DNA of 57,985 bases from a virus. Shown piece by piece: positions 1,185 to 36,466 of this stretch. The stretch's first letter is position 1; each line of letters begins with the position of its first letter. The DNA lies in IMG/VR virus record IMGVR_UViG_3300031812_000004, positions 1 to 57,985 of that record; one strand, given 5' to 3'. The notes beneath the pieces were generated by a model. It ran no database searches. It saw only the letters and a program-made list of their open reading frames with translations, and was not told the DNA's origin. A program made the position numbers and the translations under genes.

Positions 1185-1703
1185 TTATAAATCTTCAATA
1201 TGTTTTTCTATATCTCTGTAATCATACATTTTATTCAATGTATCAGATTTTATTTCTATACAGACAAAATCATCCAATTTAATGTAATATACTTTGTATT
1301 CAGAAGGTAGTCTGCTTTTAAGTCTTGATGTCCTCGAAAATATATCCTTATTTATTTCATGATACAGAATAATAAGCACGGCATAACATAAATATCTAAT
1401 TACTTTATCGTTGTATAATACTTTTCTCATTGAGTTATAATCAATAGAAACTATATTATTTTCTACATCATCGAGTTCTTTTATTTCAATATTTATGTTC
1501 TTTTCGTAATTTTTATTCTTTATTTCTTTATTGTTTGTAACATATATTGTATACTCTGAAGGTATTTCTGTTTGTTCTTTAATGTTTTTTTTAATCTCAT
1601 CAAGAAGATAATGATATATCTCTGATACTACTGCTGTATCTTCAGGTGTGGTTATTATTCTTGGGGATATGAAGTTTATCAGATGTTTTGTACTTTTATT
1701 CAT
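1185..1703 (-). CDS. hypothetical protein downstream of sigma factor
   Basis: A 172-aa protein (MNKSTKHLINFISPRI...) with a hydrophobic stretch near residues 103-115 (YLCYAVLIILYHE), probably a buried helix rather than a membrane span. Its start overlaps the end of the sigma-factor gene by 8 nt, so the two are likely translationally coupled. No family is recognised. A regulator or partner of the sigma factor is possible but only inferred from position. Confidence 0.65.
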   Translation of the reverse strand: MNKSTKHLINFISPRIITTPEDTAVVSEIYHYLLDEIKKNIKEQTEIPSEYTIYVTNNKEIKNKNYEKNINIEIKELDDVENNIVSIDYNSMRKVLYNDKVIRYLCYAVLIILYHEINKDIFSRTSRLKSRLPSEYKVYYIKLDDFVCIEIKSDTLNKMYDYRDIEKHIEDL

Positions 1704-29428: not shown

Positions 29429-29673
29429 ATTAGTTTAAAGTTACAAGTTAAAAGTTGAAAGTTATAAGTTTAAAATTTAAAGTTGCAAGTTAAAAGTTAC
29501 AAGTTTAAAGTTACAAGTTTAAAGTTACAAGTTTAAAGTTACAAGTTTAAAGTTACAAGTTTAAAGTTACAAGTTTAAAGTTACAAGTTCATACTTTTTA
29601 CTTTTGACTTTATACTTTTAACTTTTTACTTTTATCTTTTTACTTTTTACTTTTATCTTTTTACTTTTTACTT
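29429..29673. repeat. heptamer repeat array R2, inverted halves
   Basis: The left half (to about 29589) has units of form AAAGTNN, including about six nearly exact 14-bp copies TTACAAGTTTAAAG; the right half (from about 29595) has the reverse-complement form NNACTTT. The two halves can pair in many registers to give a long hairpin or cruciform. Confidence 0.92.
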
Positions 29674-29850
29674 TTATTTTTGTAAAATATCTGATATTTT
29701 CTTATCTATCAATAATCCTGTGAATATAAATGTAAAAAATGAAAATGCAGGATGATTTTTAACAAACACGCTTAAAAAATATAACATACTATCATATTTT
29801 ATGTAGTGTATACATACAAACCAGAATACAAACATAAATATTGTTACCAT
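29674..29850 (-). CDS. small membrane protein
   Basis: A 58-aa open frame with ATG at 29850 (MVTIFMFVFWFVCIHYIKYD...), too short for most gene callers. It has one N-terminal span (residues 1-16) and a second hydrophobic segment (AFSFFTFIFTGLLI, 34-47). The stop abuts array R2. It starts 33 nt after a strong terminator of the gene upstream, so it needs its own promoter, which I could not identify. Confidence 0.45.
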   Translation of the reverse strand: MVTIFMFVFWFVCIHYIKYDSMLYFLSVFVKNHPAFSFFTFIFTGLLIDKKISDILQK

Positions 29851-31463: not shown

Positions 31464-31796
31464 TTAAACCACTGCAAAACCCTTACACCCGATGATGACA
31501 CCCTTGTCATCCCGAACCGCATCGTCAGGAATGACAAGATCATCTCGTACCCCTTTCGCAGCTTCAGCTACTACTCGAGATACGATATACAAAGTGTCAT
31601 CAGCCTTATCAGGCAACCCTTCAATCTTCCCCATAACAGACTTACTGACGGGGATCCCATTAATGTTACCCACTGCAGTTCTAGAAACCGCACAACGGGC
31701 AACCTGTCCTGACGGGGGAAACTTCGCCAGGACTTCCCCGTTACTCCCCACTACTGTCACTTCATGGGGAGTCAAATTGATGATTTTCGTTTCCAT
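31464..31796 (-). CDS. conserved INLTPHEV-type phage protein
   Basis: A 110-aa protein starting METKIINLTPHEVTVVG. The pattern INLTPHxV, FPPSGQVARC, GIPVSKSVMGKIEGLP, YIVSRVVAEAAKG, RDDLVIPDDAVRD, IIGCKGFAVV corresponds to a family I recall as widespread in phages and bacteria with unknown function. Its codon use is visibly richer in G and C than neighbouring genes, which suggests a different recent origin. It is single-gene, with its own leader and terminator. Confidence 0.75.
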   Translation of the reverse strand: METKIINLTPHEVTVVGSNGEVLAKFPPSGQVARCAVSRTAVGNINGIPVSKSVMGKIEGLPDKADDTLYIVSRVVAEAAKGVRDDLVIPDDAVRDDKGVIIGCKGFAVV

Positions 31797-32128: not shown

Positions 32129-32342
32129 TTAATAATAAAGTAATTGGTGTTTTTCTGAACGTAACTCAACAGGATAACACCAAACCTGCTTCAATCTGTT
32201 AATAAATTCGGCTAAACTGATAGTAATTAAACTATCAGCACAAGCCGTCCCATCCTTGAGTAACAGAGCAATGGGAATCTCTCCGTCGTTACTAACTCAA
32301 AAGAGCTTTCGCAAAATCGCAGAAAATAGCTAATCGAACCAT
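32129..32342 (-). pseudogene. possible frameshifted small gene
   Basis: An ATG at 32342, overlapping the end of the 87-aa gene, reads MVRLAIFCDFAKALLS to a TAG at 32292. From 32296 the +1 frame is open to a TAA at 32129 and reads protein-like sequence: NDGEIPIALLLKDGTACADS, then ITISLAEFINRLKQVWCY. Joined by a +1 shift they give about 70 aa, with the helix SLAEFINRL placed like that of the 84-aa neighbour. Either a decayed gene, a sequencing error, or programmed frameshifting. The piece also contains a perfect 8-bp hairpin, CTGATAGT with ACTATCAG. Confidence 0.4.
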
Positions 32343-32593
32343 TGAACGTCAACTACTGTCCAAGTCGCTGATTCGATTACTCTCCGTTCTGGTGTTGAAA
32401 CCCAGGACCATTCGTGAGTTTCTTCACCTTGTTCTACATGCACTACTTGCTCGTTGAGAAGGTAGTGCATAAGTTGGAACGGAGAGTTAGCCGTTCCTGC
32501 AGTATTCTTTCCGTAGAATTTCAACGGGTAAGAATACTTTTTTAGTTCTGCGAGCACCCTTCTTTGGGTGCGTAGATTATATTTAGTATTCAT
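32330..32593 (-). CDS. hypothetical small protein of the terminator-bounded cluster
   Basis: An 87-aa protein (MNTKYNLRTQRRVLAELK...) with a basic N-terminal helix, then SPFQLMHYLLNEQVVHV and a Trp-rich beta end (EWSWVSTPERR, WTVVDVQWFD). It is the first protein gene downstream of the large structured RNA locus and carries the A-rich leader. Function unknown. Confidence 0.65.
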   Translation of the reverse strand: MNTKYNLRTQRRVLAELKKYSYPLKFYGKNTAGTANSPFQLMHYLLNEQVVHVEQGEETHEWSWVSTPERRVIESATWTVVDVQWFD

Positions 32594-32667
32594 ATCTTAT
32601 TTATTTTATTTGTTTTTTTTTTTATTTTATTTTATTCTATTTTATTTTGTTTTTTTTTTCAGGAACG

Positions 32668-32697
32668 TAAAAAAAAGTCAGGATTTACGGACCTGAC
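32668..32697 (-). terminator. terminator of the large structured RNA
   Basis: On the minus strand GTCAGG (32692-32697) pairs with CCTGAC (32677-32682) across a 9-nt loop and is followed directly by eight U. It sits at the exact left edge of the GC-rich structured region, so it defines the 3' end of a minus-strand transcript. Confidence 0.82.
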
Positions 32698-33285
32698 AGT
32701 GCATCTTCCGATGCCCCCCGCCGTTTTTGCACCTGCTCACGGGCTCAAAACGGCAAACCTCTCAGTCAGTTTTGACTCCCAATACGTAGCGGGACATTAC
32801 AAACTGACAAACTACCCGCATTTCGACGTGCCTCGGGACAGCAACTTCACCTTAGCGGCTTGCGACCACAGGCAGTGTCCGGACACTGTTTATCCTGTGG
32901 TCCTCACCGATTTAGCGTGGGTACCCGAGAACTTACTCCCACGCATACCACTTGTTTCGTCTTTTGACTGCACAAGTGGCTGGACGGTTATCCCCCCTCA
33001 GTAGCGTTGTAGCTACGGGTGTTTGCGTCCAGTTCGGGCTGCTTTCCTAGTATATGGCAGCCCTATGTCTTCCATCTTGGTCTTTCGACCTCAATGGCGT
33101 TCATGACTCCGTGGTGTCTTGGTTATCACCTCCGCTGACACACTCGGTGCCCGCCCTACCTGTACCGCACATCACAGACATATAGTCTGTTCGACGCAGT
33201 CTGCTGTTACGGGTTGTTACCCCTCGGGCGGCTCACACCACGGAGCCACATAGACCTCCACGTCTCATAACCGTGGGGTCTAATT
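32668..33285 (-). ncRNA. large ornate structured noncoding RNA, about 600 nt
   Basis: A GC-rich island in an AT-rich genome, packed with perfect helices (plus coordinates): GCATC 32701-05/32710-14, 32720-27/32747-54, 32765-72/32801-08, 32864-72/32894-902 enclosing CAGTG 32873-77/32884-88, 32915-21/32938-44, 32948-55/32972-79, CTGGACG 32980-86/33026-32 enclosing GTAGC 33001-05/33012-16, GGGCTGC 33036-42/33057-63, GGTC 33079-82/33087-90, a long-range 11-bp helix 33107-17/33235-45 enclosing CCGCCC 33151-56/33226-31 and ACAGAC 33174-79/33185-90, and 33251-56+58-62/72-76+77-82. On the minus strand two hairpins are capped by GNRA loops (GGAA, GAAA), and one has a U-G, G-A internal loop; the plus strand lacks these. 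The minus-strand terminator agrees. Size and density recall ROOL and GOLLD phage RNAs, but I cannot match it to either. Confidence 0.8.
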
Positions 33286-33301
33286 TTTATGTTTTTTTTT
33301 C

Positions 33302-33321
33302 AATGTTCCACGTGGAACATT
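33302..33321. other. parS-like centromere site
   Basis: A perfect 20-bp palindrome, AATGTTCCACGTGGAACATT. Its core TGTTCCACGTGGAACA is one base from the classic B. subtilis ParB site TGTTCCACGTGAAACA and equals the symmetric form described for Pseudomonas. The right arm GTGGAACATTT is repeated directly at 33324-33334, giving an extra half-site. No ParA or ParB gene is in the window, so host ParB (or a gene outside the window) would be the reader. Confidence 0.75.
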
Positions 33322-34138: not shown

Positions 34139-34358
34139 CGTATCATAGTTTCGTATGATAGTCTTGTATCATAATCTTGTATCATAATTTTGTAAGATAG
34201 TTTTAAATCTGATTGTATAGTAGTGTAGTATTATATTATAATATCATAGTATAGTATAGTAATATAGTATCGTAGTATATTATTGTAGTGTAGTATCATA
34301 ATTTCGTATTGTGATATAGTTTTAGAATTGGTTGTATCATAGTTTTGTATCATAGTTT
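34139..34358. repeat. 13-bp iteron-like tandem repeats
   Basis: Five consecutive 13-mers (34139-34203) of consensus TGTATCATARTYT: CGTATCATAGTTT, CGTATGATAGTCT, TGTATCATAATCT, TGTATCATAATTT, TGTAAGATAGTTT. Two exact copies TGTATCATAGTTT recur at 34333-34358, with degenerate ones between (for example 34292-34304). Tandem same-orientation 13-mers beside AT-rich DNA at a divergent switch resemble replication-origin iterons. Confidence 0.75.
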
Positions 34359-34591
34359 TAAGTTTGTTTGTGTTATAGTTTTAGAGCTGTTCGTATAATA
34401 AACAAATTATTTAACGAATTTATTAATTAATAAACAAATTGTTATAGACTTATTTTGTTATATTTTTAAGAGGTGTAGTATAAGGTATATGTTTATATTA
34501 TTATTTTCTACGTTTTATTTGGTTGAATAGTAGGAATTTGGTTATAGTTATTGTGTAGTTTATGAGGAATGTTAGGGGTGATTATTTGGGT

Positions 34592-34604
34592 GGGGGGGGG
34601 GGGG
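34592..34604 (+). other. G13 homopolymer in G-rich stretch
   Basis: A run of 13 G within the GT-rich, gene-free DNA between the iterons and the first fibre gene. Several more GGG groups flank it (34575-34615), so a G-quadruplex is possible. The length may vary between clones. Nothing else is seen from 34400 to 34695. Confidence 0.7.
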
Positions 34605-34698
34605 TGGTGTGGGTGGATATTTGGAAGGCAAGTTTGGTTAGGTTTTTGGTAGTTTGGTTTAGGTTTTTCATAGGTTATTGATTTTGTTGGTGTAAAGA

Positions 34699-34880
34699 TA
34701 GTAAAAAGTAGAAAGTTAAAAGTTGAAAGTTAAAAGTAGAAGGTATAAAAGACAAACTTGTAACTTTAAACTTTCGATTTTCAACTCACAACTTTCAACT
34801 TTCGACTTGTAACTTTTATCTTACAACTTTCAACTTGTAACTTACAACTTACAACTTTCAACTTATAACTTATAACTTAT
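34699..34880. repeat. heptamer repeat array R3, inverted halves
   Basis: Left half AAAGTNN units (about 34699-34753, for example AAAGTTAAAAGTTGAAAGTT) and a longer right half of NNACTTT units to 34880. It ends 52 nt before the first fibre-like gene and directly before its late-promoter motif. Confidence 0.92.
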
Positions 34881-34893
34881 TTTTAATTGTGTT

Positions 34894-34907
34894 TAATATT
34901 TAGTATA
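34894..34907 (+). promoter_or_regulatory. late-promoter motif, copy 1
   Basis: TAATATTTAGTATA, matching TAAWATTTAGTAT, 24 nt before the ATG of the first fibre-like gene. The upstream frame that would run through it is rejected for this reason. Confidence 0.7.
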
Positions 34908-34931
34908 GGTAGAATACTAAAATATTTGTCT

Positions 34932-35543
34932 ATGAGTTGTGGTGGTAATGGTAATTGTAATGAGATAGAGCGGTTATTGGGGTGTATATGTGACAGGGTG
35001 TATGCTTTGCACCAGATGTTAGGTGATTATTTAGTTAGTATTATTAACCAGTTAGTGAATGTGAATGGGTGGTTGAATTCTATATATAGTGTATTGAATA
35101 ATGTTAATAATGTTTTAGGGAATATAAATAGTTTATTAGTAAGTATAGATAGTATGTTGCAGAACATACAGAATGATTTGAATAATGGGTTTAGTCAGGT
35201 TATAGGGTTATTGGGGCAGTTATTGGCTTGTTGTCAGGCTGGTTTGGCGAGTAGTTCGGTTATCAGGAATCCGGTTGTAATAAGTTTTAATTCCAGTAGT
35301 ATTCCTTTGAATCGGATAAGCAATGCGGTGGGTTTGGTACCTGGGGGTTTGTTTTTGTGGGTTCAGTTTCGGAATGTGGGGGCTAATCCGGCTATGGTCA
35401 ATGGTTTTTATGTTCCTCCTGGGGGTGTCAGGGAGTACAGGGTTAACGGGAATGATAAGCTTGGGCAGATATCGTATGATTGTACGGGAGCATTCCCTGG
35501 GGGTATGGGGGTGACGGAGTTGGAGATAGAGGGGTTGCAGTAG
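34932..35543 (+). CDS. fibre-like virion protein 1, coil plus C-terminal beta domain
   Basis: A 203-aa protein starting MSCGGNGNCNEIERLL (34932), downstream of the late-promoter motif. Residues about 20-110 form a long hydrophobic heptad coil (QLVNVNGWLNSIYSVLNNVN and LLVSIDSMLQNIQNDL), consistent with a trimeric stalk. The C-terminal 90 residues are a beta domain (LFLWVQFRNVG, VNGFYVPPGGVREYRV). The layout matches a short trimeric fibre or head decoration. It is very G/T-rich on the coding strand compared with neighbours. Heptamer arrays flank it on both sides. Confidence 0.65.
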   Translation: MSCGGNGNCNEIERLLGCICDRVYALHQMLGDYLVSIINQLVNVNGWLNSIYSVLNNVNNVLGNINSLLVSIDSMLQNIQNDLNNGFSQVIGLLGQLLACCQAGLASSSVIRNPVVISFNSSSIPLNRISNAVGLVPGGLFLWVQFRNVGANPAMVNGFYVPPGGVREYRVNGNDKLGQISYDCTGAFPGGMGVTELEIEGLQ

Positions 35544-35810
35544 GAAGTAGAAAGTTAAAAGTAGAAAGTTAAAAGTAGAAAGTAGGAAGTAGAAAGTTAA
35601 AAGTAGGAAGTAGAAAGTTAAAAGTCATAAGTAAAAAGTATAAAGTTAAGAGTAGAAAGTGGAGAGTCAAAAAGTTAAAAGTATAAAGTCAAAAAGTTAA
35701 AAGTATAAAGTCAAAAAGTTAAAAGTATAAAGTCAAAAGTAAAAAGTATGAACTTGTAACTTTTAACTTGCAACTTTAAACTTGTAACTTTAAACTTGTA
35801 ACTAACAACT
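35542..35810. repeat. heptamer repeat array R4, inverted halves
   Basis: Starts at the stop codon of fibre gene 1. About 200 bp of AAAGTNN units (AAAGTTAAAAGTAGAAAGTT) then about 60 bp of NNACTTT units ending 14 nt before fibre gene 2. It replaces both terminator and leader between the genes. Confidence 0.93.
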
Positions 35811-35823
35811 AAAATAAAGGTAT

Positions 35824-36243
35824 ATGGGAGAAGTTCAGGGGCATACGTATGATAGTAACTTGCAAAGGAATTTGCAGGATGAGGTTAATATAGGTATCAG
35901 GGATTTGAGCTTGCAGATAGCGAGGTTGTGTCAATGTGTAGGTGGAAGTGGAACAATAAACGGAACGGTAGATATAAACCCTAAGCCGGTAGATTTACTT
36001 GTTACCGGTTATCAGAATGTAGGAGGCATAATAATAGTTATACCGGTAGATATAGTGGCATTAATAGTAAGGAATGATGATACTGTTGCAGGTAAAGTTT
36101 TATTAGTAAACAACTTTCCAGTTTTGCCTGGGGAAGTGTATACGGTTGATGCGGTAGGGTATAACAGGTATTTTCCGAAAAATACTATAACTATTAATGG
36201 TGTGAGCTGTGATAAGTTTTCTGTTCAATGGGTAGCTGTTTAA
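35824..36243 (+). CDS. fibre-like virion protein 2
   Basis: A 139-aa protein (MGEVQGHTYDSNLQRNLQDE...). A short N-terminal coil (DEVNIGIRDLSLQIARLCQC) is followed by a beta domain with TVDINPKPVDLLVTGYQNVG, VNNFPVLPGEVYTVDAV. The C-terminal domain shares the pattern of hydrophobic strand, then PPG or LPGEVY, then strand with fibre protein 1 (VPPGGVREYRV), so they may be cassette variants of one fold. Flanked by arrays R4 and R5. Confidence 0.6.
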   Translation: MGEVQGHTYDSNLQRNLQDEVNIGIRDLSLQIARLCQCVGGSGTINGTVDINPKPVDLLVTGYQNVGGIIIVIPVDIVALIVRNDDTVAGKVLLVNNFPVLPGEVYTVDAVGYNRYFPKNTITINGVSCDKFSVQWVAV

Positions 36244-36456
36244 AGTAGAAAGTCAAAAGTCAAAAGTTAAAAGTGGAAAGTATGAAAGTGGAAAGTAAAA
36301 AGTTAAAAGTTAAAAGTATAAGGCATAAAGTTGCAACTTTAAACTTTCAACTTACAACTTACAACTTTCAACTTTCAACTTTAAACTTTAAACTTTAAAC
36401 TTGTAACTTGTAACTTGCAACTTTTAACTTGTAACTTTAAACTTTAAACTTTTAAA
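36244..36456. repeat. heptamer repeat array R5, inverted halves
   Basis: Begins right after the stop of fibre gene 2. The first half is AAAGTNN units (to about 36329), the second NNACTTT units, with many exact ACTTTAA copies. It ends 10 nt before the ATG of fibre gene 3. Confidence 0.93.
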
Positions 36457-36466
36457 CTAACATAAA

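Follow-up and report, generated by a model that had tools for sequence, protein, structure and literature searches.

Large ornate RNAs of bacteria and phages

Among bacterial RNAs whose function is unknown, GOLLD and ROOL rank with the largest. Both are often encoded near tRNA islands, a tendency rather than a strict criterion. GOLLD is composed of separable 5' and 3' regions, and ROOL, ~600–660 nt in length, is characterized by a P10 pseudoknot and a conserved L8-J6/8 kissing interaction. OLE and raiA, two further ornate RNAs, are of cellular origin; HEARO occurs together with an HNH-type ORF. Cryo-EM has shown both GOLLD and ROOL to be homo-oligomeric, hollow, RNA-only cages with kissing loops and A-minor contacts, the GOLLD nanocage being a 14-mer (PMC12286853). 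Many GOLLD members exceed 800 nt, and GOLLD expression increases during lysis; ROOL may reach an abundance up to the level of 16S rRNA, and yet is non-essential (PMC12286853).

The locus described here lies in the window, the entire 57,985-bp stretch analyzed, which is a linear IMG/VR record. Its minus strand from 33285 to 32669 is a GC-rich, exceptionally structured, non-coding sequence ending in an intrinsic terminator, and very probably corresponds to a real, free-standing large structured RNA. A structural role is suggested for this RNA because its size, style, phage setting and genome position resemble those of GOLLD and ROOL. It appears to represent a new class of large phage RNA, one that may be GOLLD- or ROOL-like in its action while being neither of them.

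Genomic setting

To the right of ~33.5 kb the window contains rightward genes leading to TerL, portal and a Crassvirus-type capsid protein, and its left arm contains leftward genes including DNA polymerase, a DnaB-type helicase, a sigma-70-like factor and a RecE-like exonuclease. Judged by this gene content, it is reasonable that the locus was earlier designated an early/late switch region. The leftward arm opens with the RNA, which occupies the promoter-proximal end of the replication genes and is encoded on the minus strand, 8 kb upstream of TerL. The phage carries the crAss-type MCP, portal and TerL by which Crassvirales are recognized (PF23898, E 2.5e-20; phrog_6547, E 4.1e-75; phrog_6681, E 3.5e-53), and its TerL is ~42% identical to a large environmental clade and ~25% identical to named Crassvirales, so that by sequence it is a divergent crAss-like phage. 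TerL as a single query found no close relatives in IMG/VR, and ARAGORN found no tRNA in the 58-kb window.

Fold and architecture of the RNA

The initial annotation, made from the DNA letters alone, had proposed a ~600-nt GC-rich island in an AT-rich genome with at least fourteen helices, an 11-bp long-range helix closing a multibranch domain, two GNRA tetraloops and a U-G/G-A internal loop on the minus strand, and an eight-U terminator at the minus-strand 3' edge, all of which were recovered. The island is 618 nt long with 53.6% GC, compared with 30.0% for the remaining window, and no other 618-nt window sampled at a step of 309, some of them overlapping the island, exceeds 49.8%. Its minus strand has a minimum free energy (MFE) of -250.9 kcal/mol (z -7.6, equaled by 0 of 20 dinucleotide shuffles), making it 24.5 kcal/mol more stable than the plus strand (-226.4 kcal/mol, z -5.9). 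At least 14 helices are present in total, and eight perfect Watson-Crick helices of at least 7 bp form within 60 nt, where shuffles have a mean of 1.2 and a maximum of 3. Structure beyond composition, as would be asked of any large structured phage noncoding RNA, is thus seen in both the z of -7.6 and the helix excess. Coding potential is absent by comparison: minus frames contain 8–11 stops each, and the longest stop-free frame (111 codons, plus strand) is equaled in 36% of shuffles, with no PHROG match for the 101-aa ORF it contains. The GC island, helix excess, z-score and absence of coding signal together delimit an RNA of ~610–617 nt (32669–33285, minus strand) running from a 5' hairpin to the U8 end, for which the structure model given below was derived from a single sequence.

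The 5' hairpin H1 (33251–33282; GACC-CCACG/CGUGG-A-GGUC, 9-nt loop, from the MFE fold) is followed by the multibranch domain (33103–33249; MFE, helix count, z -4.2), whose 11-bp closing helix, CUCCGUGGUGU/ACACCACGGAG, extends to 15 pairs in the MFE structure. Three elements follow in the best-folding sub-region (32976–33102, z -6.2). The first is a GAAA-tetraloop hairpin (33072–33097) in which a 2x2 purine internal loop adjoins a U-G pair, this being the small internal loop of the annotation. The second, a hairpin GGGCUGC/GCAGCCC with a 14-nt loop (33036–33063), is supported by helix count and sub-region fold, as is the third, a CUGGACG/CGUCCAG domain (32980–33032) holding a GUAGC/GCUAC hairpin and, by motif position, the second copy of a GAUAACC motif. 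The same two lines of evidence identify three consecutive hairpins, CCACUUGU/ACAAGUGG with an inner GUC-AAAA-GAC (32948–32979), GCGUGGG/CCCACGC (32915–32944), and the long GACCACAGG/CCUGUGGUC (32864–32902) with its palindromic CAGUGUCCGGACACUG tip, all on the minus strand.

Sub-regions folded separately gave z-scores of -4.2, -6.2, -5.0 and -0.5, the last, at chance level by itself, marking 32862–32715 as a locally weak part whose pairing may depend on long-range or pseudoknot contacts, or which may be a flexible linker. Within it a helix GUCAGUUU/AAACUGAC (32765–32808; helix count, sub-region fold) and a hairpin GCCGUUUU/AAAACGGC (32717–32757; MFE, helix count) are nevertheless discernible. 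A further hairpin, GCAUC-GGAA-GAUGC (32701–32714; sequence and MFE), carries the second GNRA loop, and this GGAA, like the GAAA of GGUC-GAAA-GACC, occurs on the minus strand only. The RNA ends in an intrinsic terminator visible in the sequence at 32697–32669 (GUCAGG, 9-nt loop, CCUGAC, U8), which is missing from the list of the consensus scanner because that scanner accepts loops of 3–8 nt.

Upstream, an A-rich leader element GAAAAAAAAACATAAAAATTA (33281–33301, minus strand), a putative promoter, is of the same type as elements preceding several neighboring minus-strand ORFs, 30 matches being found in the window against 2.4 expected. Since the element is common to neighboring genes, it suggests that the RNA constitutes an independent transcription unit. 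Just beyond it lies a perfect parS-like palindrome, TGTTCCACGTGGAACA (33304–33319), identified by sequence. A TGTTNCACGTGNAACA match also occurs at L106:2250-2265 in a related phage, 7.75 kb upstream of TerL as compared with 7.97 kb for the palindrome in the window, and in none of the other contigs examined. No ParB domain was detected among the left-arm proteins tested, leaving a functional tie between palindrome and RNA unsupported.

Search for known classes and homologs

A 1-kb segment was compared by cmscan with all 4227 Rfam 15 models under relaxed filters at E ≤ 10. The impression of the initial annotation that the locus recalls GOLLD and ROOL and matches neither held throughout this comparison: no relevant match appeared, including to GOLLD, ROOL, OLE, HEARO and raiA, the classes the annotation had singled out for checking, and the output consisted of microRNA-type noise and one Bacteroides sRNA match far under threshold. 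Models of self-splicing introns, ribozymes and riboswitches likewise gave no match at E ≤ 10. The annotation's reading of a large noncoding RNA is supported by fold and terminator, and its suggestion of a new class is better described as probable than as demonstrated. That the RNA belongs to a class outside Rfam is considered likely.

Searches by BLAST, nhmmer, exact patterns and single-sequence covariance models, covering ~2 Mb of crAss-like loci, phage and plasmid collections, and 395 genomes from the phylum to which a crAss-bearing Chitinophagaceae MAG belongs, yielded no homolog; this absence weighs little, since the records closest to the window may lie outside the collections covered. 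Direct DNA similarity in phages and plasmids amounted to low-complexity or chance pieces, and the single-sequence models R1 and R2, covering two domains, detected nothing in 160 crAss-like loci (~2 Mb) or in MAG-borne relatives. Exact RNA patterns in viral contigs produced one match, due to chance and coding; another such scan gave many short matches, none extending convincingly among the matches listed; and further patterns yielded 13 matches without extension, none, and two chance matches. The pattern scan of the genome collection had zero matches. A weak match in genome G115 (E 0.0045 per genome, with ~2 chance matches expected over 395 genomes) was rejected, as it lies over the apparent start of a TonB-receptor-like gene.

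GC islands upstream of TerL in L108, L109, L113, L116, L142 and L168 initially resembled homologs, and were discarded because of their overlap with small ORFs on the minus strand and with a separate, conserved GC-rich element. This noncoding element, GGGG..CCCC....TAGCCGGGGAGC...GGACCCC, is located near the strand switch upstream of TerL in L104, L113, L116, L123, L142, L147, L158 and L168. Scanning whole contigs for structure in short windows discriminated poorly, yet pointed to the GOLLD of one relative, L110.

Structured RNAs in the corresponding region of related phages

GOLLD was found in two of 53 records tested, many of which are fragments. In L059 (contig G033) it occupies ~4218–3849 on the minus strand, scoring 224.5 bits, above the curated cut-off, with TerL at ~9950. 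In L110 (contig G052) a GOLLD-type RNA at ~3040–2100, also on the minus strand, scores 117.8 bits (E ~1e-33 to 5e-32), beneath the gathering cut-off, with TerL at ~10001 on the plus strand. Both RNAs are thus encoded on the strand opposite to the terminase and ~6–8 kb upstream of TerL. In L113 a 95-nt stretch is 71.6% identical to the 5' part of the L110 GOLLD. No link between GOLLD and crAss-like phages was found in the literature searched, most subscription journals lying outside that search, and GOLLD in crAss-like phages seems to be unreported. An unclassified 471-nt structured RNA (z -6.3) was found in another relative between small minus-strand genes (L106:3180-3650, minus strand); it is preceded by the leader element of the neighboring genes and has no Rfam match. 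The positions of these RNAs correspond in arm and orientation (within ~3 kb of the point of divergence and 6–8 kb before TerL), and not in exact gene neighbor.

Smaller structured RNAs occur in the same arm. Pistol ribozymes are located at L329:10703-10764 (plus strand, in the contig of L110, directly downstream of its GOLLD) and at L355:2377-2438 (minus strand), a RAGATH-1 hammerhead ribozyme at L147:3007-3085 (minus strand), and tRNA and tmRNA genes upstream of TerL at L150:4831-5475 (plus strand), indicating that structured RNA is plentiful in this region as a whole. A crAss-like contig binned as a Woesearchaeota MAG carries a repeated H-type-pseudoknot-like element, CCAGGGGUGCGACUGGGAUAACAACGCACACCC, after stop codons (L353:60-100 and 1490-1540, minus strand).

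Comparison with GOLLD, ROOL and other ornate RNAs

Similarly to GOLLD (RF02032), the window RNA is phage-encoded, large and rich in helices, and the GOLLDs of its relatives share its part of the arm and its strand. Against this, it has no covariance-model match at E ≤ 10 under conditions in which L059 and L110 serve as positive controls, no similarity beyond chance to the GOLLD sequences of these two phages, and no recognizable conserved GOLLD 3' domain; it is GC-rich, its ~617 nt fall short of the 800 nt that many GOLLDs exceed, and the absence of tRNA from the window departs from the near-tRNA tendency. The likeness to ROOL (RF03087) extends to length, both being phage-encoded RNAs of ~600 nt with dense helices and no evident protein partner, whereas no RF03087 match was obtained at E ≤ 10 and, again, no tRNA is present. 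The ROOL null is less secure, since the search of relatives with this model gave no positive control. OLE, HEARO and raiA are ornate bacterial RNAs of a similar size class, but none matches the window RNA at E ≤ 10 and no HNH-type ORF adjoins it. The L106 RNA is comparable in its part of the leftward arm, its strand, its leader element and its lack of an Rfam match, but no sequence or structure-model similarity between the two was detected.

The window RNA might still be a highly divergent GOLLD or ROOL beyond the reach of the Rfam models, and hence a known class. The region and strand shared with the L059 and L110 GOLLDs speak for this, as do the extent of the Rfam GOLLD model, which has just 416 positions and omits the variable 5' region, and the score of the L110 GOLLD, already under the gathering threshold. 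However, that same L110 GOLLD was found with the same tool despite its sub-curated score, so that a moderately divergent GOLLD would be expected to show in the window. The silence of the 1-kb search at E ≤ 10 with relaxed filters (for ROOL, one lacking a positive control), the chance-level similarity to both known GOLLDs and the differences in length and GC content make this relationship unlikely.

Alternative explanations

Comparably unlikely is a role as a very long 5' leader of the minus-strand gene at 32330–32593, a giant riboswitch or attenuator in which read-through is governed by the terminal hairpin. Gene and RNA share a strand, and the terminator separates the structured part from the ORF, leaving just a short A-rich gap. 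Nevertheless, the ORF possesses A-rich leader elements of its own at 32660 and 32624, an antiterminator alternative is not apparent by eye, and no Rfam riboswitch matches; moreover, the ORF has no family match and hence offers no sensible ligand logic. An unrecognized catalytic RNA or the relic of a mobile intron (a ribozyme or intron core rather than a structural RNA) would account for the dense helices and GNRA loops, and Pistol and hammerhead-type ribozymes in the same arm of relatives lend it some context. Yet no intron or ribozyme model in Rfam matches at E ≤ 10, the RNA is intergenic, and a 3' terminator of its own is not expected of an intron, making this origin distinctly unlikely.

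A DNA-level element, such as a replication origin or a packaging or partition site whose single strands fold without being used as RNA, would be in keeping with a strand-switch location adjoining a perfect parS-like palindrome and with the good folding of both strands. This is rendered improbable by the strand-specific features, namely the 24.5 kcal/mol difference, the minus-only GNRA loops and the minus-strand U8 terminator, and by the presence of GOLLD, a proven RNA family, in this region of relatives. Finally, a non-functional or horizontally acquired GC-rich fragment, for instance a decayed gene from a GC-rich source, would explain a GC content far over that of the genome and the lack of homologs in the collections searched, but is highly improbable given the exact terminator, the absence of a coding remnant and an excess of perfect helices far beyond that of composition-matched shuffles.

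Possible function and assembly

The balance tips towards a free-standing ornate RNA in the role of GOLLD that, by covariance model, is neither GOLLD nor ROOL. Such an RNA, of ~610 nt, would be transcribed as a stable, free-standing unit of its own, with a leader element of the kind found at the adjacent small genes. It would be an abundant, self-folding structural ('ornate') RNA performing the task that GOLLD fulfills in related phages, and would be made during infection, where it may oligomerize via loop-loop contacts into a particle. Chances are about even that it acts like GOLLD or ROOL, an estimate resting on analogy, and oligomer formation, suggested by the same comparison, is a tentative proposal. 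Candidate contacts include GGUUAU at the H1 loop, complementary to two GAUAACC copies (RNA positions 14, 159, 294) with which it could pair, and the palindromic CCGG hairpin tip. These complementarities are short enough to arise by chance, and may serve only as leads to assembly.

A broader and more speculative reading holds that in the early-arm region of environmental crAss-like phages unrelated giant structural RNAs (GOLLD, the window RNA and the L106 RNA) replace one another, and that the window RNA is the first of a new, independently evolved, self-assembling class; on present indications this is somewhat doubtful. If true, an unrelated RNA built in the same style and lodged in the same region would imply that phages have evolved these RNAs repeatedly to perform one job, a job that could be approached by asking what is interchangeable between them. 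CrAss-like phages, some of which can be cultivated, would then also count among the carriers of large ornate RNAs.

Other features near the strand switch

Long satellite-like arrays of AAAGTTAAAAGT/AACTTTAAACTT lie between genes near the strand switch (29440–29680, 34700–34890, 35540–35815 and 36240–36460). Positions 34150–35800 display an extreme GC skew (up to 0.9), with a C-poor, G-rich plus strand across gene and repeats. The minus-strand gene at 31464–31796 encodes a small phrog_30542 protein that is also found in Paenibacillus and Microcystis phages and in an Altiarchaeum virus (38–47% identity).
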